From contig NZ_JAPJZH010000016.1 in NCBI RefSeq assembly GCF_027889715.1, positions 1-64,000 of the forward strand: a DNA stretch of 64,000 nucleotides, given 5' to 3'. Within the stretch, counting starts at the first letter, position 1; every line of letters starts with the position of its first letter. This DNA comes from Allohoeflea poritis (GTDB lineage Bacteria; Pseudomonadota; Alphaproteobacteria; Rhizobiales; Rhizobiaceae). The position numbers and the translations under genes were made by a program. Shown in pieces: positions 18,212 through 64,000 of the stretch. The notes under the pieces are model-generated. The model worked only from the letters and a program-made list of their open reading frames with translations, searched no databases and was not told where the DNA came from.

Positions 18212-18236
18212 GGTTCTTCTTCAAAGTGTGTGATTG
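18212..18236 (+). repeat. Left terminal inverted repeat of the ISL3 element
   Basis: A 25-bp sequence beginning GGTTCTTCTTCAAAGTGTGT is exactly repeated in inverse orientation at 19877-19901. It starts immediately beyond the 3' end of the transposase frame. The 8 bp outside it (TTTAATTG) do not match the 8 bp outside the right end (ACAAGAAT), so no target duplication is visible. Confidence 0.9.
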
Positions 18237-19846
18237 AGCGGCATCATTCTCGCCCGCATCAATTCTGGCCCGGCGCGTCCGTACATGGCCCGTTTTAGCG
18301 TTTTGAGGCGGTTGATCTGCCCTTCGGCTTGTCCGTTGCTCCAGGGAAGTTCGATGGCATTCTTCACGGCCTCGAGATCCCGGTGCAAAATCCGGGCAAA
18401 CCGTACGACTTCGACAAGCTGTGTTTCGATTGCATCGTCGATCCATTCTTCCACAAAACGCGCATTACTGCTGCGCAAGATGCCGTTGAAACGCATGGCT
18501 AAACTCCGCATCGTGGCAAAGGCTGCGGAGCCTTGTTTAAGCGCTTCGACCTTTCTCGCCTGGCTTTCTGTCAACTTGCCCCGCGGTTTGATGCACAAAG
18601 CCGCTGCGATAACGGACGAGATCATGCGGCCGGTATCAGGATCGCGGACAGGCTCTGACACTCGGACTTTGAGGGCCGCCTCATTGGATTGAGAGTTCTG
18701 AGCGCTACGCCATTCCTTCAACAGCCGTTCCAGATTGGAGCGACTGCCTGTGTAGCCACGGTTCTTGACATCATGAAAGAGATGACGCCCGTTGCGGTTT
18801 CCGTTCCTCCAACAGTCCGTAAGAAATTCTTCAAAATATAGAGGAGAGGTGGTTTTCAACGCGGCTCGTTTTCGGTCCCAAGGTGCACTTGAGGTAAGCC
18901 AATTCGTCACGCTGCGACGACCATACCCTGTCCTTCTCGCGATTTCGCTGTATGAGAGGCCCCGTTGGCGCATAGAGTGTAGCGTATCGAATATTTCCTG
19001 ACGCGATTGTCTGTGTGCTAGACGGGCACGTTGGAAACAAGCTCTGGTGCTGGCGATAGAGTCTTCCGATAAGACCGGTCTCACGTTGGCGTGCCCATAA
19101 AGGCTCATTTGCGCCTTGATCGCCGCCCGAAGGTTTTGGACCAGATGGAAACGATCAGCTACCTGTTTAGCCTGTGGTGCACCCTCTCTAGCAACCTGAG
19201 AATAAAGACCGCAGCAATCTCTGCTGGCGACTTCGATGAAAGGCCGTTCTTGCAGCCACGCTTTCACGCCTTTGACACTGCGATCATCCAGAACATCGAC
19301 GACAGATCGTTTCTCGAGATCGACCATGATCGTTCCGTAATGCGAGCACCTTCGCCAGTTCCAATCATCAATTCCGAGGACGCGAACGTCGTTGTTTTGC
19401 ACAGAGTTCGGCGCGTTCTGTTTCAATTAGCGCAGGATCGTATTGTCACTGACAGGCATCCCCAGCCGATGCAACAGGCTTTCGGCCGGACGACCACCCA
19501 TGCCATGGCCCACGAGACCTACGATTTCAGCCATCCTCGACGTTCGGTGCGCATATGGTGGCGCAATCGCTGGAAGCTGATCCGAGAAAGTGCGCCGCCT
19601 GCATTTGCGGTTCCTGCACTGCCAACGCAAAATCGTCAGCGTCACCTTCACCGGGCACCCCTGGATTGGCAAATATGCAAATCGACGGTTGCGCTGACCG
19701 TGACGATGACGACTTCGGCAGCCGCAATCCGGGCAGATACCAACCGGTTTTGCTTCGACCGAAACAATCCAGTTTTCTTCATCTTGGAAGGTCATGCCCT
19801 GAACTTTGACCCTTGGGCCGGGCGACCATTTTGATTTTGTTCGCAT
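18221..19846 (-). pseudogene. tnpA: ISL3-family transposase interrupted by an in-frame TAA
   Basis: The 5' part (19846 to 19430) encodes the zinc-finger N-terminus ICPDCGCRSRHRHG and the helix-turn-helix region, ending in MPVSDNTILR. A TAA at 19427-19429 follows, and the same frame then continues from 19426 through the DDE catalytic domain: LGIDDWNWRR, then VADRFHLVQNLR, then LPWSNGQAEGQINRLKTLKR. The two parts are in one frame with no indel, so a single nonsense change explains the break. Read through, the protein would be about 540 residues. Restart at the adjacent TTG or stop-codon readthrough is possible but not shown. Confidence 0.85.
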
Positions 19847-19991: not shown

Positions 19992-20050
19992 GTCGGCAAT
20001 TAGCCCAAATTTGATTTCAGTTGGTACCCATATGGTACCCAATCCCGAAT
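19992..20050. repeat. Integration-arm-like sequence, copy A, with 11-bp-spaced direct repeats
   Basis: TGGTACCCA occurs at 20022-20030 and again at 20033-20041, an 11-bp period (about one helical turn). The preceding AAATTTGATTTCA and the trailing CCGAAT closely match the sequence at 62595-62650. Spaced repeats of this kind are seen at integrase arm sites of tRNA-targeting elements. No integrase gene is present beside it; the ISL3 element begins about 90 bp to the left. Confidence 0.55.
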
Positions 20051-20070: not shown

Positions 20071-20100
20071 AAAAAAACCGCTATCCTATCGGGATAGCGG
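20071..20100 (-). terminator. Intrinsic terminator on the minus strand
   Basis: On the minus strand CCGCTATCC and GGATAGCGG form a 9-bp stem (20092-20100 with 20078-20086) with a 5-nt loop, followed by seven T residues. It lies just downstream, in minus-strand sense, of the tRNA-like 3' end at 20109, where a tRNA terminator would be expected. Confidence 0.75.
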
Positions 20101-20108
20101 GTTAATTT

Positions 20109-20121
20109 TGGTTGCGGGGAC
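20109..20121 (-). other. Possible attachment core: short tRNA-type 3' end
   Basis: Read on the minus strand this is GTCCCCGCAACCA, like the acceptor end of a tRNA such as initiator tRNA-Met, including CCA. The T-arm is absent, so only about a dozen bases match. Support comes from the terminator just downstream and from the distance to arm-like copy A (59 nt), nearly the same as at the tRNA-Arg fragment at 62708 (58 nt). Confidence 0.4.
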
Positions 20122-20352
20122 ACGCAACCATCGACAGCAGCAGGGACTTTTCCATACAGCAGCGTGACGATCCAAGTTAATCCAATAGAACATCCAAGTC
20201 ACTGGCTTAATGTGTATCTATCGTTACTGGCAACCACATGCTGAATTGACTATGATGGATAGTTGTCATTCAATATTCAAACATTTATGGAATTTAAATA
20301 GATTTATAAATTTGTAATCATTTTCTAAAAATTTCCCTCACCTCATTATATT

Positions 20353-21537
20353 GTGCCTTTGATTGATTTTGAGAAATTCTTACTCCGAAATCGAATTTAT
20401 CAAACAACAATTAATTATACCGGAGAACAAGCTGTGGCCGGTTCATTTGTACGGCCGAGTCTAACGATAAAACTAAGCGTTGATCGCTTCGATTTTGACA
20501 TTGGATATCTTGAGGGGCCCAGCTATTTTGATGAGCCAGTCTTCAGGGTTCTCATCCATGAGTTGACCCACTTTTGGCAGACAGTTTCTATGAATTTTCT
20601 CGTAAAAGCTGCCCTATCTGAGTGGCGGCAGCTCATTGATTATGAAACTTCTGGAAACACGCAGTCTCAAAATAGATTTGAGGACAAACTTGAGCAGCGC
20701 GACAAAACCTCTGGTCTGAAACCCAATGATCTGTTGGAAGCTCACGCCCTTTATTGGGACGTCAGTATCCTCGGTGTTTTCAACGTAAAGAATTGGCGAA
20801 ACATCAATCGCAGTATGGTTGATGTTGGAGACAGAAAAATTCAACGGTCACCATCAAGTCCTATCACCAGTCAGTCGGGGGGCTCATTTGATGAAGTCAT
20901 GTTATCGGATTCATTCTATTCCGATCCCTACAGAATGCTGCACAACAGGACGGACAGCTTTTTTGCAGCTCTGACGTTCCCAATTGTGGTTTATTTTGCG
21001 TTTCAAACAGACGATCCAGTCATCGCTTATACGGAAGCTGTCAAAACAATCCGCCCTCTTGTAGATGGCATTTATGGCTCGCCAGATCTTGAAAAACGGC
21101 AAGAAGTTTATTTCCTTGCGATCCAATCTCACGTCATGCGGGCGGCTGAAACGAAAGGGTTGAGCTTTACAGAACCGAGAGCAGTTTTGACCGATTTGTT
21201 GAACGAAACAAATCAAAGCCAAATCAATCCTTTACTTCTCCATTACGCCGCAAAAATGCACACCTTGGAAGAGCAGGCCAAGCAGTATGGAGCCGATTTG
21301 AACCGCTATTTTGCACTCTGCGGGAATGTACAATACCGGAAGGAACTTATGGGCGGAGGCCCAATGCCTCCATTGGTTCAGTTTGCGGATGGAGAATGGC
21401 CACTACAGGCAATGATAAATCAGTTCATGCGAACAGGAGCATATGATGAAACGGAAAATGACGAACTGGCAACTATCGCGAAGGATATTGGTCGCCGGTG
21501 GAGCAGCTACCGTATCGCTGCCTTTGTGGCTAATTAA
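20353..21537 (+). CDS. Unrecognised protein with HExxH zinc-protease-like motif
   Basis: A 394-residue protein not assigned to a named family. It carries HELTHFWQ (His69, Glu70, His73) after the hydrophobic stretch EPVFRVLIHE, and EAHALYWD at 129-136 could supply a third zinc ligand (Glu129 or His131), as in HExxH-type peptidases. No signal peptide is seen, so it is probably cytoplasmic. The GTG start at 20353 is the first available and lacks a clear ribosome site. Base composition is far more AT-rich than its neighbours, which points to recent transfer. The next gene begins inside its 3' end. Confidence 0.65.
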   Translation: MPLIDFEKFLLRNRIYQTTINYTGEQAVAGSFVRPSLTIKLSVDRFDFDIGYLEGPSYFDEPVFRVLIHELTHFWQTVSMNFLVKAALSEWRQLIDYETSGNTQSQNRFEDKLEQRDKTSGLKPNDLLEAHALYWDVSILGVFNVKNWRNINRSMVDVGDRKIQRSPSSPITSQSGGSFDEVMLSDSFYSDPYRMLHNRTDSFFAALTFPIVVYFAFQTDDPVIAYTEAVKTIRPLVDGIYGSPDLEKRQEVYFLAIQSHVMRAAETKGLSFTEPRAVLTDLLNETNQSQINPLLLHYAAKMHTLEEQAKQYGADLNRYFALCGNVQYRKELMGGGPMPPLVQFADGEWPLQAMINQFMRTGAYDETENDELATIAKDIGRRWSSYRIAAFVAN

Positions 21538-62594: not shown

Positions 62595-62650
62595 GTCGAA
62601 ATTGGCTCAAACTTGATTTCATGTGGTGACCAGGTGGTGACCAACCGAAT
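62595..62650. repeat. Integration-arm-like sequence, copy B, with 11-bp-spaced direct repeats
   Basis: TGGTGACCA at 62624-62632 and 62635-62643 repeats with an 11-bp period. The 5' part (AAACTTGATTTCA) and the trailing CCGAAT match copy A at 19992-20050 across most of about 58 bases. It is 58 nt from a tRNA-Arg 3' fragment. No integrase gene adjoins it; the 250 bp to the left hold no gene. Confidence 0.6.
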
Positions 62651-62707
62651 TGCTTGAGGTCCGCCTAAATTTCTGACGACTTAACTTATTGAAATTCTTT
62701 TCAAATT

Positions 62708-62753
62708 TGGTGCACCCGGCACGATTCGAACGTGCGACCTCTGCCTTCGGAGG
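62708..62753 (-). tRNA. tRNA-Arg(CCG) 3' fragment (attachment-site remnant)
   Basis: On the minus strand the sequence starts CCTCCGAAGGCAG, which holds most of the anticodon loop with CCG and the 3' side of the stem. It continues through GAGGTCGCACG, the T-loop TTCGAAT and CGTGCCGGGTGCACCA. The 5' half of the tRNA is missing, because homology stops abruptly at 62753. This is the classic footprint of an element that recombines into the 3' half of a tRNA gene. The fragment is not a functional tRNA. Confidence 0.85.
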
Positions 62754-62882: not shown

Positions 62883-62900
62883 TGCTTACGTAGTGCTTAC
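62883..62900. repeat. Third 11-bp-spaced repeat, TGCTTAC
   Basis: TGCTTAC at 62883-62889 and 62894-62900 recur with the same 11-bp spacing seen in copies A and B, shortly before the point where LysR homology ends. It may be another integrase arm site, but surrounding sequence similarity to A and B is weak. Confidence 0.4.
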
Positions 62901-63190
62901 ACGGAGACAGGCCGGAAAGGTCTGCCGTCCGATGCCGAAGCTCTCCCAGCCTGCGTTAGTTGCGCTCCCGAAGCATGCCGTTCAAAAAGCGAAACGCCTA
63001 AGTAATCTTCGAGTTTCTGAATACGTCGGCTTACCGCAGATTGACCGACTCCAATTCTGTTTGCAGCTCGTCGAATGCTGCCACTCTCGGCAACCGTGAC
63101 GACATCCAACAACTGCTTCGTCTGAAGCTTCGTTAGATCGGACAATTCCAATCGCAGCGAATCGATATCGATTGCCATGGGCTGCCTCAC
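62897..63190 (-). pseudogene. Truncated LysR-family regulator (DNA-binding domain only)
   Basis: The first about 85 residues form a normal LysR helix-turn-helix (LLDVVTVAESGSIRRAANRI, then GVGQSAVSRRIQKLEDYLG, then VSLFERHASGAQLTQAG). Homology then stops and about 12 unrelated residues run to a stop near the TGCTTAC repeats. The effector domain is gone. The break coincides with the integration-site-like region, so insertion or recombination cut the gene. The ATG at 63190 overlaps the upstream hydrolase stop by 4 bp. Confidence 0.8.
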
Positions 63191-64000
63191 CGGTCTGCAT
63201 TATCGGCAACCGATCGAATAGCCTCGGACACCATATCTGCGTGTTCAGTTTGCGGCCAATGGCCCGCGCTTTCGATCACTTGCAGACGCGCATTTGGAAG
63301 CAGGTCTACGAGATTTTTCGAGCTTTCGAGTGGAACGATGCCGTCTTGTGCGCCTTGCAAAACTAGCGTCGGGAGGTCGATGGCGCTCAGACGTTCGTCT
63401 GTGAAGATGCCTTTTTCATCTTTGATTGATCTCGCAAGTGAACCGATCACATATTCTCTGTTTAGAGTTGCATGTGCGTCGAGCAGCTCTCTGATCTCAC
63501 CTTCGTCTGTAGGCGGCTCGAACAATACCCGACCGAGATAACGACGCATCCCGTCTAGGTTTGTCGGCAATGCGCCAGCGGCCAAATCCACCGCAGACAC
63601 CTTTGCGGGCAAGCCCTTAAAGAAGGCCGGTGCGATTAGCACGAGTCCGTCCACCCGTTCAGGAAACTGTTCTGCAAATGCCAGTGATACCCAGCCGCCC
63701 ATCGAATTGCCGACGAGCGTTGCCCGCTCGACGCCCCGGCGATCCATGTGCGCCACGACCTGATCGACGAAGACGTCGACATGATAGTCCATGGCGGGTT
63801 TGTCCGATGCGCCAAAGCCTAAAAGGTCCAGAGCAATCACCCGGTGATCTTCCGACAATGCTTCGAGGTTCTGCTCGAAGCGGCTCATGTCGGCGCCAAG
63901 GCCGTGGATCAGAATGATCGCATCGCCTTCGCCTTGATCAGTAAATGCTGTGCGGTGGCCAAGGGTCGGAGCGAGTTGCAGAGACCCGGTCTGCGATAGC
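63187..64000 (-). CDS. Alpha/beta hydrolase, meta-cleavage-product-hydrolase-like (cut by window edge)
   Basis: The frame is open to the window edge, so the N-terminus is missing. About 270 residues are visible: the oxyanion-hole motif ILIHGLGAD, the nucleophile elbow VGNSMGGWVS, the acid in LQGAQDGIVP and the His in ESAGHWPQTEH. This is a complete catalytic triad. Relatives hydrolyse C-C bonds of aromatic ring-cleavage products or esters. It is translationally coupled to the truncated LysR gene, an arrangement that predates the truncation. Confidence 0.82.
   Translation of the reverse strand, partial: LSQTGSLQLAPTLGHRTAFTDQGEGDAIILIHGLGADMSRFEQNLEALSEDHRVIALDLLGFGASDKPAMDYHVDVFVDQVVAHMDRRGVERATLVGNSMGGWVSLAFAEQFPERVDGLVLIAPAFFKGLPAKVSAVDLAAGALPTNLDGMRRYLGRVLFEPPTDEGEIRELLDAHATLNREYVIGSLARSIKDEKGIFTDERLSAIDLPTLVLQGAQDGIVPLESSKNLVDLLPNARLQVIESAGHWPQTEHADMVSEAIRSVADNADR

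Follow-up and report, generated by a model that had tools for sequence, protein, structure and literature searches.

The question raised by this locus is how the 3′ half of a tRNA-Arg(CCG) gene came to stand beside a pair of short repeats (site B, 62595-62753) in a stretch of DNA where no complete tRNA was called by ARAGORN and Rfam gave no match at the gathering threshold. That stretch, hereafter the window, comprises 64,000 nucleotides (positions 1-64000) of contig C7 (111,551 bp), which belongs to a 5.58-Mb genome in 54 contigs. Pfam domains were searched in 29 open reading frames of the window and in nine from its right neighbour region, and tyrosine recombinases (PF00589) were searched across the whole genome. 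Contigs of this genome are designated C, other genomes G and compared loci L; the features of the window are collected in Table 1.

Table 1. Features at copy A, at site B and to the right of site B (window coordinates)
Feature	Position	Strand	Remarks
Copy A repeat pair	20022..20041	.	20-mer TGGTACCCATATGGTACCCA, also present as the pair near the C18 integrase
Copy A hairpin, likely terminator, separating repeat pair and tRNA end	20075..20103	.	inverted repeat; T run by eye
Copy A, 3′-terminal 14 nt of initiator-type tRNA-Met	20109..20122	-	E 3.0 alone; alignment to C16 supports
P-arm block common to A and B (58 nt)	62598..62655	-	36/58 identical to A
P-arm repeat pair TGGTGACCA GG TGGTGACCA	62624..62643	.	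CCA 64 nt away; exact 9/9, period 11; left, putative older island
att core: tRNA-Arg(CCG) 3′ half, displaced, from anticodon loop to CCA	62708..62753	-	46/46 versus C5:136142-136187
P′ arm homologous to the tRNA-Arg integrase P′ arms in L098, L118 and L119	62754..62904	-	ungapped identity
P′-arm repeat pair GTAAGCA CTAC GTAAGCA	62883..62900	minus-strand sequence	right, putative younger island; ~129-130 nt from core
LysR regulator gene cut to its DNA-binding domain	62897..63190	-	97 aa, HTH_1, without the LysR substrate domain; frame enters the P′ pair
Alpha/beta hydrolase gene, putative island cargo	63187..64000	-	continues to C7:65130

The tRNA core and the two arms of site B

To begin with, the piece at B had originally been described as an unmistakable tRNA fragment, and this was borne out by its identity (46/46) to the 3′ half of a tRNA-Arg(CCG) on contig C5. 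It is exactly the last 46 nt of that intact gene (C5:136111-136187), while only 36 of the 46 positions are identical in the tRNA-Arg(CCG) neighbouring B on C7. To the left of the core, the word TGGTCACCA is paired in the 20-mer TGGTGACCAGGTGGTGACCA. The claimed resemblance of B to a second site, copy A, over about 58 bases also held, with 36 identical positions in the ungapped block against a mean of 14.6 and a maximum of 29 in 5000 shuffles. Moreover, A was the top non-self place when both strands of the window were scanned with the B block (runner-up, 30/58), and related blocks were found by alignment on C16, on C18 and in G352. The 11-bp repeat period was confirmed in both copies, each having an exact 9/9 pair, as was the separation of 42.6 kb (42,602 bp). 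The spacings of 59 nt (A) and 58 nt (B) to the tRNA end are right if taken from the end of the shared block to TGG; from the repeat pair, the distances are 67 and 64 nt, respectively.

The left pair of B was found nowhere else in the genome at up to two mismatches and in five places at three mismatches. Thus, no second TGGTCACCA pair marks the far end of an older island, which possibly lies beyond a contig end or was lost, and such an island is postulated rather than delimited. Among 385 genomes searched, the left 20-mer appeared in one other, G352, at two contig ends, and these contigs were matched by neither integrase query. Furthermore, 11 viral contigs contained it, and in about four of them a tRNA-like 3′ end could be seen by eye a short way ahead of it. 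An integrase belonging to this arm was not found.

On the right of the core there is another arm, overlooked in the original prediction, so that B is composed of two unlike arms in P′-core-P order, with the TGGTCACCA pair on the left and a GTAAGCA pair on the right. The right flank was compared ungapped with three loci from other genomes in which an integrase adjoins a tRNA-Arg(CCG) fragment, resulting in 91/152 (L098), 83/152 (L118) and 97/152 (L119) identical positions; the respective maxima were 50, 52 and 53 for slid controls and 59, 55 and 61 for shuffled ones. A fourth locus having another repeat word, L117, gave 57/152 (slid maximum 54, shuffle maximum 58). The integrases of L098, L118 and L119 were 35-36% identical to that on C18 and contained both the Arm-DNA-bind_3 and Phage_integrase domains. 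In L098, the order was integrase, GTAAGCA pair, core and then a different pair (8/9) located 47 nt after the CCA. Given the homology of the flank, the right side of B may be assigned to the P′ arm of this integrase type, and the left side to the P arm of another element. The GTAAGCA pair was detected, at up to one mismatch, in three places of the 5.58 Mb, all of them on C7 (62883-62900, 68221-68238 and 68382-68399), compared to one place for the reversed pattern.

Regarding the repeat period, C7 contained five exact 9/9 pairs at period 11 and 0-5 at each of 13 other periods (7 to 20). Since period 18 also reached five, the number at period 11 is unexceptional by itself; four of the five adjoin the 3′ end of a tRNA or tRNA fragment. 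Across the genome, an exact 9/9 period-11 pair was present 30-140 nt downstream of 4 of its 43 tRNAs (some with <140 nt of downstream sequence), and of none at 13 other periods. Among the tRNA-Arg(CCG) places of other genomes (29, that is, 30 loci minus B itself), nine had a period-11 pair at 8/9 or better, compared to none or one at other periods; six of these pairs start 47 or 65-67 nt after the CCA and three at 98-111 nt. A chance origin was ruled out by the period controls together with the genome-wide counts (GTAAGCA, 3 versus 1 for the reversed control). In addition, the pattern TGGNNNCCANNTGGNNNCCA was found in five places of this genome and its reversed control in none. As a universal mark, this loose pattern was rejected: it matched 15 of 101 genomes, with 17 places in the other 14 versus 14 in 14 genomes for the reversed control, so that in the family outside this genome the pattern is at noise.

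The segment between site B and the neighbouring tRNA-Arg(CCG)

An intact tRNA-Arg(CCG), sought to the right of B as a check on the original prediction, was found 5.5 kb away at C7:68290-68366 (minus strand; tRNA-Arg#2), in the same orientation as the fragment. A GTAAGCA pair lies 51 nt past its CCA (C7:68221-68238), 5.3 kb to the right of B and in opposite orientation to that of B. As the two pairs bracket 62754-68289 in inverted order, this segment is read as one element, in which both putative att sites are kept (the pairs 62883-62900 and C7:68221-68238, with B and tRNA-Arg#2 as cores). No tyrosine recombinase gene was found within it, either by the genome search with PF00589 or by Pfam in six of its genes: a lysR remnant, an alpha/beta hydrolase, a TIM-barrel protein, a 72-aa protein (no Pfam match), an aldo-keto reductase and a LysR regulator. 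By its kept att sites and absent tyrosine recombinase, the segment reads as a CIME-like decayed island. About 30 nt past the pair, L098 has the start of its integrase, whereas B has the lysR remnant at that place, and hence B would be the relic of an Arm-DNA-bind_3 integrase att and not a working cassette. The frame of the remnant running into the P′ pair suggests, moreover, a deletion that took out the integrase.

The two tRNA-Arg(CCG) genes were also compared. Between tRNA-Arg#2 and the C5 gene there is 1 difference among the 38 positions of the 5′ half, compared with 10 among the 39 of the 3′ half, and this crowding of the differences fits a 3′ half supplied by an incoming island. The lone 5′ difference pairs with a 3′ difference in the anticodon stem, as read from the sequences, like a compensating change. 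The gene order upstream of the C5 tRNA-Arg is conserved at the tRNA-Arg(CCG) of G085, a genome of the same genus that yielded a single match, and the C5 gene looks like the native copy. Around tRNA-Arg#2, a further GTAAGCA pair stands 15 bp 5′ of the gene (C7:68382-68399), as if the whole tRNA stood between two integrase arms. Additionally, a 26-nt copy of a tRNA-Arg anticodon arm (C7:68497-68522; 88%, E 4.7e-4) was observed between tRNA-Arg#2 and the cassette of a tRNA-Met integrase.

That integrase (C7:68945-70108) belongs to another island, inserted in tRNA-Met(CAT) (C7:70304-70380), and its domain (69509-70042) was the sole PF00589 match on C7 in the whole-genome profile search. A TTTGACATG pair follows this tRNA, and the same word (8/9) precedes a tRNA-Met 3′ half at C25:87-135. 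In G085 (C1:219041-303647), the same tRNA-Met is found beside the same GFO/IDH/MocA oxidoreductase gene, with an 80%-identical integrase, TTTGACATG at both ends and the displaced fragment 83 kb away. Both of these tRNA-Met islands have a P arm at one end and a P′ arm at the other, and neither integrase had a Pfam match to Arm-DNA-bind_3. If C7 and C25 join, the window would lie inside a large composite tRNA-Met island, with tRNA-Arg#2 as its cargo.

Copy A, integrase relatives and arm-to-core spacing

The tRNA-type 3′ end attributed to copy A stood in part, as A aligns with the tRNA-Met region of C16, but its 14 nt alone are not significant (E 3.0). The alignment to the DNA at and after the intact C16 tRNA-Met covered 128 aligned columns, 100 of them identical, and scored 57, whereas the best among 200 shuffles scored -17. 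This tRNA-Met is presumably of the initiator type, judging from its sequence and from its position after an apparent rRNA operon. On C18, a pair identical to that of A precedes, by 37 nt, the start of an integrase that contains Arm-DNA-bind_3 and Phage_integrase domains, and on the other side of the pair there is the 3′ half of the C16 tRNA-Met (45/45), which gives the arrangement of a predicted attR: integrase, P′ pair and core. Correspondingly, A looks like a P arm, consisting of the 14 nt of tRNA-Met, a hairpin with a T run and the pair. The proposal that related integrases use different tRNA genes was supported by these data, the pair of A being that of the C18 tRNA-Met integrase and the piece of B a tRNA-Arg.

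Some further features were observed around these sites. Directly to the left of A there is an ISL3-family transposase in two reading frames (18221-19846, Pfam), and to its right a 394-aa open frame (20353-21537) with no Pfam match, in a region whose start is AT-rich by eye. On C16 (L013:319-422), the tRNA-Met after the apparent rRNA operon is followed by a hairpin and a TGGGTACCA pair, and 36 nt past this pair stands the decayed 3′ half of a tRNA-Arg (81%). Several tRNA-Met P arms, including A, L240, L244 and L241, have, as judged by eye, a hairpin rich in GC between the CCA and the pair, frequently accompanied by a T run, and tRNA-Met islands may bring a replacement terminator for the interrupted operon.

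Relatives of the C18 integrase were found in 195 stretches of public genomes, of which the best 80 were kept and 78 used, as the match fell short of the integrase start in L124 and L148. Within 250 nt upstream of these 78 loci, pairs at 8/9 or better were most frequent at period 11 (40), followed by periods 10 (17) and 20 (11), with 0-7 at each other period; exact 8/8 pairs numbered 35 at period 11, 6 at period 10 and none or one at seven other tested periods. No period-11 pair at 8/9 or better was found in that interval for 38 of the 78 loci. Period-11 pairs as a mark of all integrases were likewise rejected, since exact 8/8 pairs at periods 10, 11 or 12 were absent around three other tRNA-associated integrases of this genome, on C44 (tRNA-Leu), C22 (tRNA-Lys) and C51 (tRNA-Gln). 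A tRNA 3′ half was present upstream in 50 of the 78 loci, the best match being tRNA-Met in 45, tRNA-Lys in three and tRNA-Arg in two.

For the 36 of the 78 loci (within L121-L200) in which a tRNA half was present together with a pair at 8/9 or better, the P′ distances fell into four groups, of 118-121 nt (2 loci), 128-133 nt (19), 140-145 nt (7) and 153-155 nt (8), with nothing between them; the right arm of B sits in the main one (128-133 nt). The groups are about one helical turn apart, with a resultant length peaking at periods 11.5-12 and not at 10.5, although the loci are related and this is not a formal test. One fixed arm distance was rejected, since P pairs lie 66 nt (C16), 51 nt (tRNA-Arg#2), 41 nt (tRNA-Arg(ACG)) and 104 nt (tRNA-Met) after the CCA. 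Elsewhere, the distances were 47 or 65-111 nt in other tRNA-Arg loci and once 183 nt (tRNA-Met).

The word TGCTTCCAC, paired at up to two mismatches, was found in 18 places in five of the genomes with an integrase relative, and its reversed control in none. A tRNA-Met half stands beside 16 of the 18 places, 15 of which keep to one or the other of two set distances. P′ arms account for six of the 16, all separated from the core by exactly 130 nt and all accompanied by an integrase match (five had been known beforehand, the genomes having been picked for that word). The other ten are P places after the tRNA-Met CCA, nine of them at 68-70 nt and one at 183 nt. The two places lacking a tRNA both had two mismatches and stood at contig ends. 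Both P and P′ arms were present in four of the five genomes. The DNA from the CCA to the pair was near-identical among some places (68/68) and unrelated among others (19/68 within one genome), the distance being constant within 2 nt. In G536 (L240, L244 and L248), three intact tRNA-Met genes each had a P pair, and one P′ place with TGCTTCCAC was found; the surplus P pairs could stem from islands since lost or from gene conversion among rRNA operons.

Origin of site B and comparison with known systems

The core, the repeat pairs with their words and positions, and the homologies are observed directly. From them, it is very probable that B is a compound attachment site, formed by tandem accretion when two islands successively entered a tRNA-Arg(CCG) gene. 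An older island with TGGTCACCA arms would have entered the tRNA-Arg at C7:68290-68366 by tyrosine recombination at the anticodon loop, leaving the tRNA, 64 nt and the repeat pair. Judging from the matching arms, a younger island with GTAAGCA arms would then have entered the same tRNA, supplying a new 3′ half, so that the displaced old half became B; read in the tRNA sense, B would comprise the P′ arm of the younger island, the core and the P arm of the older one. Finally, a deletion may have joined the younger P′ arm to the truncated lysR, with loss of the integrase, and the resulting 5.5-kb island (62754-68289), which retains both arms, would depend for its excision on an integrase supplied in trans. 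The tandem islands originally suggested are supported by the P′-core-P order with two repeat words and by the intact tRNA-Arg(CCG) 5.5 kb to the right. Counting against this model, the older island has neither a second TGGTCACCA arm nor a found integrase in this genome, the third GTAAGCA pair (C7:68382-68399) is not predicted by its simple version, B is closer to the C5 tRNA than to its C7 neighbour, and the reversed GTAAGCA pattern has one place. The identity between B and the C5 gene would be explained by the younger island replacing the 3′ half of the neighbouring C7 gene.

That same identity, shared with the C5 gene and not with the C7 gene, would also be expected if B were the far end of an island in the native C5 tRNA-Arg that was moved to C7 by assembly or rearrangement, and C5 stops 1.1 kb past its tRNA-Arg. 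However, no period-11 pair (at 8/9 or better) was found in the 200 nt after the C5 tRNA, all three GTAAGCA pairs are at B and around the C7 gene, and it is the C7 tRNA that has a target-like altered 3′ half, which makes this origin improbable. It is very improbable that A and B bound a single 42.6-kb island, despite their related blocks in the same orientation and the metabolic and transport genes between them (among the reading frames scanned). The two sites differ in repeat word and in tRNA, the pair of A matching that of the C18 tRNA-Met integrase, and both are on the CCA side and P-like, while the tRNA-Met islands here and in G085 have one P and one P′ arm; a single element was rejected on these grounds. 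The repeats could instead be operators of a regulator and the tRNA piece an unrelated pseudogene, as pairs near integrase gene starts could double as operators, and KplE1 has IntS arm sites that overlap the intS promoter (PMC2951348). This is hardly credible, given that nine of the ten TGCTTCCAC P places had no integrase match in the examined stretch and eight of those nine were still 68-70 nt from the CCA.

Returning to tandem accretion at tRNA-Arg(CCG), the elements of B have counterparts in known systems. In the Islander work, an intact tRNA gene and a displaced 3′ fragment mark the island ends, as at B, and anticodon-centred sites and tandem arrays are known (PMC4383910). Islander drops candidates lacking an integrase and takes arrays if each member has an integrase and a fragment, whereas the 5.5-kb island has no integrase (PMC4383910). 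The segment 62754-68289 resembles a CIME, a decayed cis-mobilizable island, in tandem accretion as described in another study, in that att sites are kept, the recombination gene is lost, the array has one target and the cargo is metabolic; however, the most decayed members there were always the farthest from the target gene, while here the decayed one adjoins it (PMC7563491). Arm-type sites, several of them predictions, are described for mycobacteriophage cluster J (PMC3706429), ICEMlSymR7A IntS (PMC11963761) and oenophages (PMC8074189). As in B, short repeated arm words flank the core in these systems, paired in cluster J, but the words and targets are others and the elements are single, not a hybrid site. 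Tandem accretion and decayed CIMEs have already been described (PMC7563491, PMC8978831). Since these, the tRNA-fragment marks and the arm repeats are all described, B is filed under a known kind of structure.

The loci with Arm-DNA-bind_3 integrases (C18, L098, L117, L118 and L119) are like B in having the P′ pair between the core and the integrase start and the P pair beyond the tRNA CCA, and unlike B in that B has lost the integrase gene and has a P arm from another element. These integrases we take to be 'P4-like'. What sets B apart is that it looks unusually legible, as every island end is marked by a short repeat pair of its own, at a fixed spacing from the piece of tRNA. A limited search of open literature yielded no published rule on how far the arm pair lies from the core, which is weak evidence of absence. 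B suggests that arm repeats can serve to delimit an island that lacks an integrase and is skipped by integrase-based finders, and that one short site can preserve the sequence in which two islands arrived. Moreover, the spacing pattern offers a cheap test linking orphan island ends to the integrase clade from which they originate.

More broadly, and with more doubt than confidence, the island ends can be proposed to act as a portable address: a 9+2+9 pair whose word is common to the two arms of an element and to the clade of its integrase, whereas the target tRNA is free to change and the distance between pair and core shifts by whole helical turns. Were this true, integrase-less islands, hybrid junctions and arrival order would be callable from sequence alone, arm word and target core would evolve as separate modules, and the third GTAAGCA pair, 5′ of tRNA-Arg#2, would indicate an element that carried the whole tRNA gene between its arms. 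Finally, L242 and L246 look, by eye, similar to B for tRNA-Met, with a core having no recognisable tRNA 5′ half and then a P pair.
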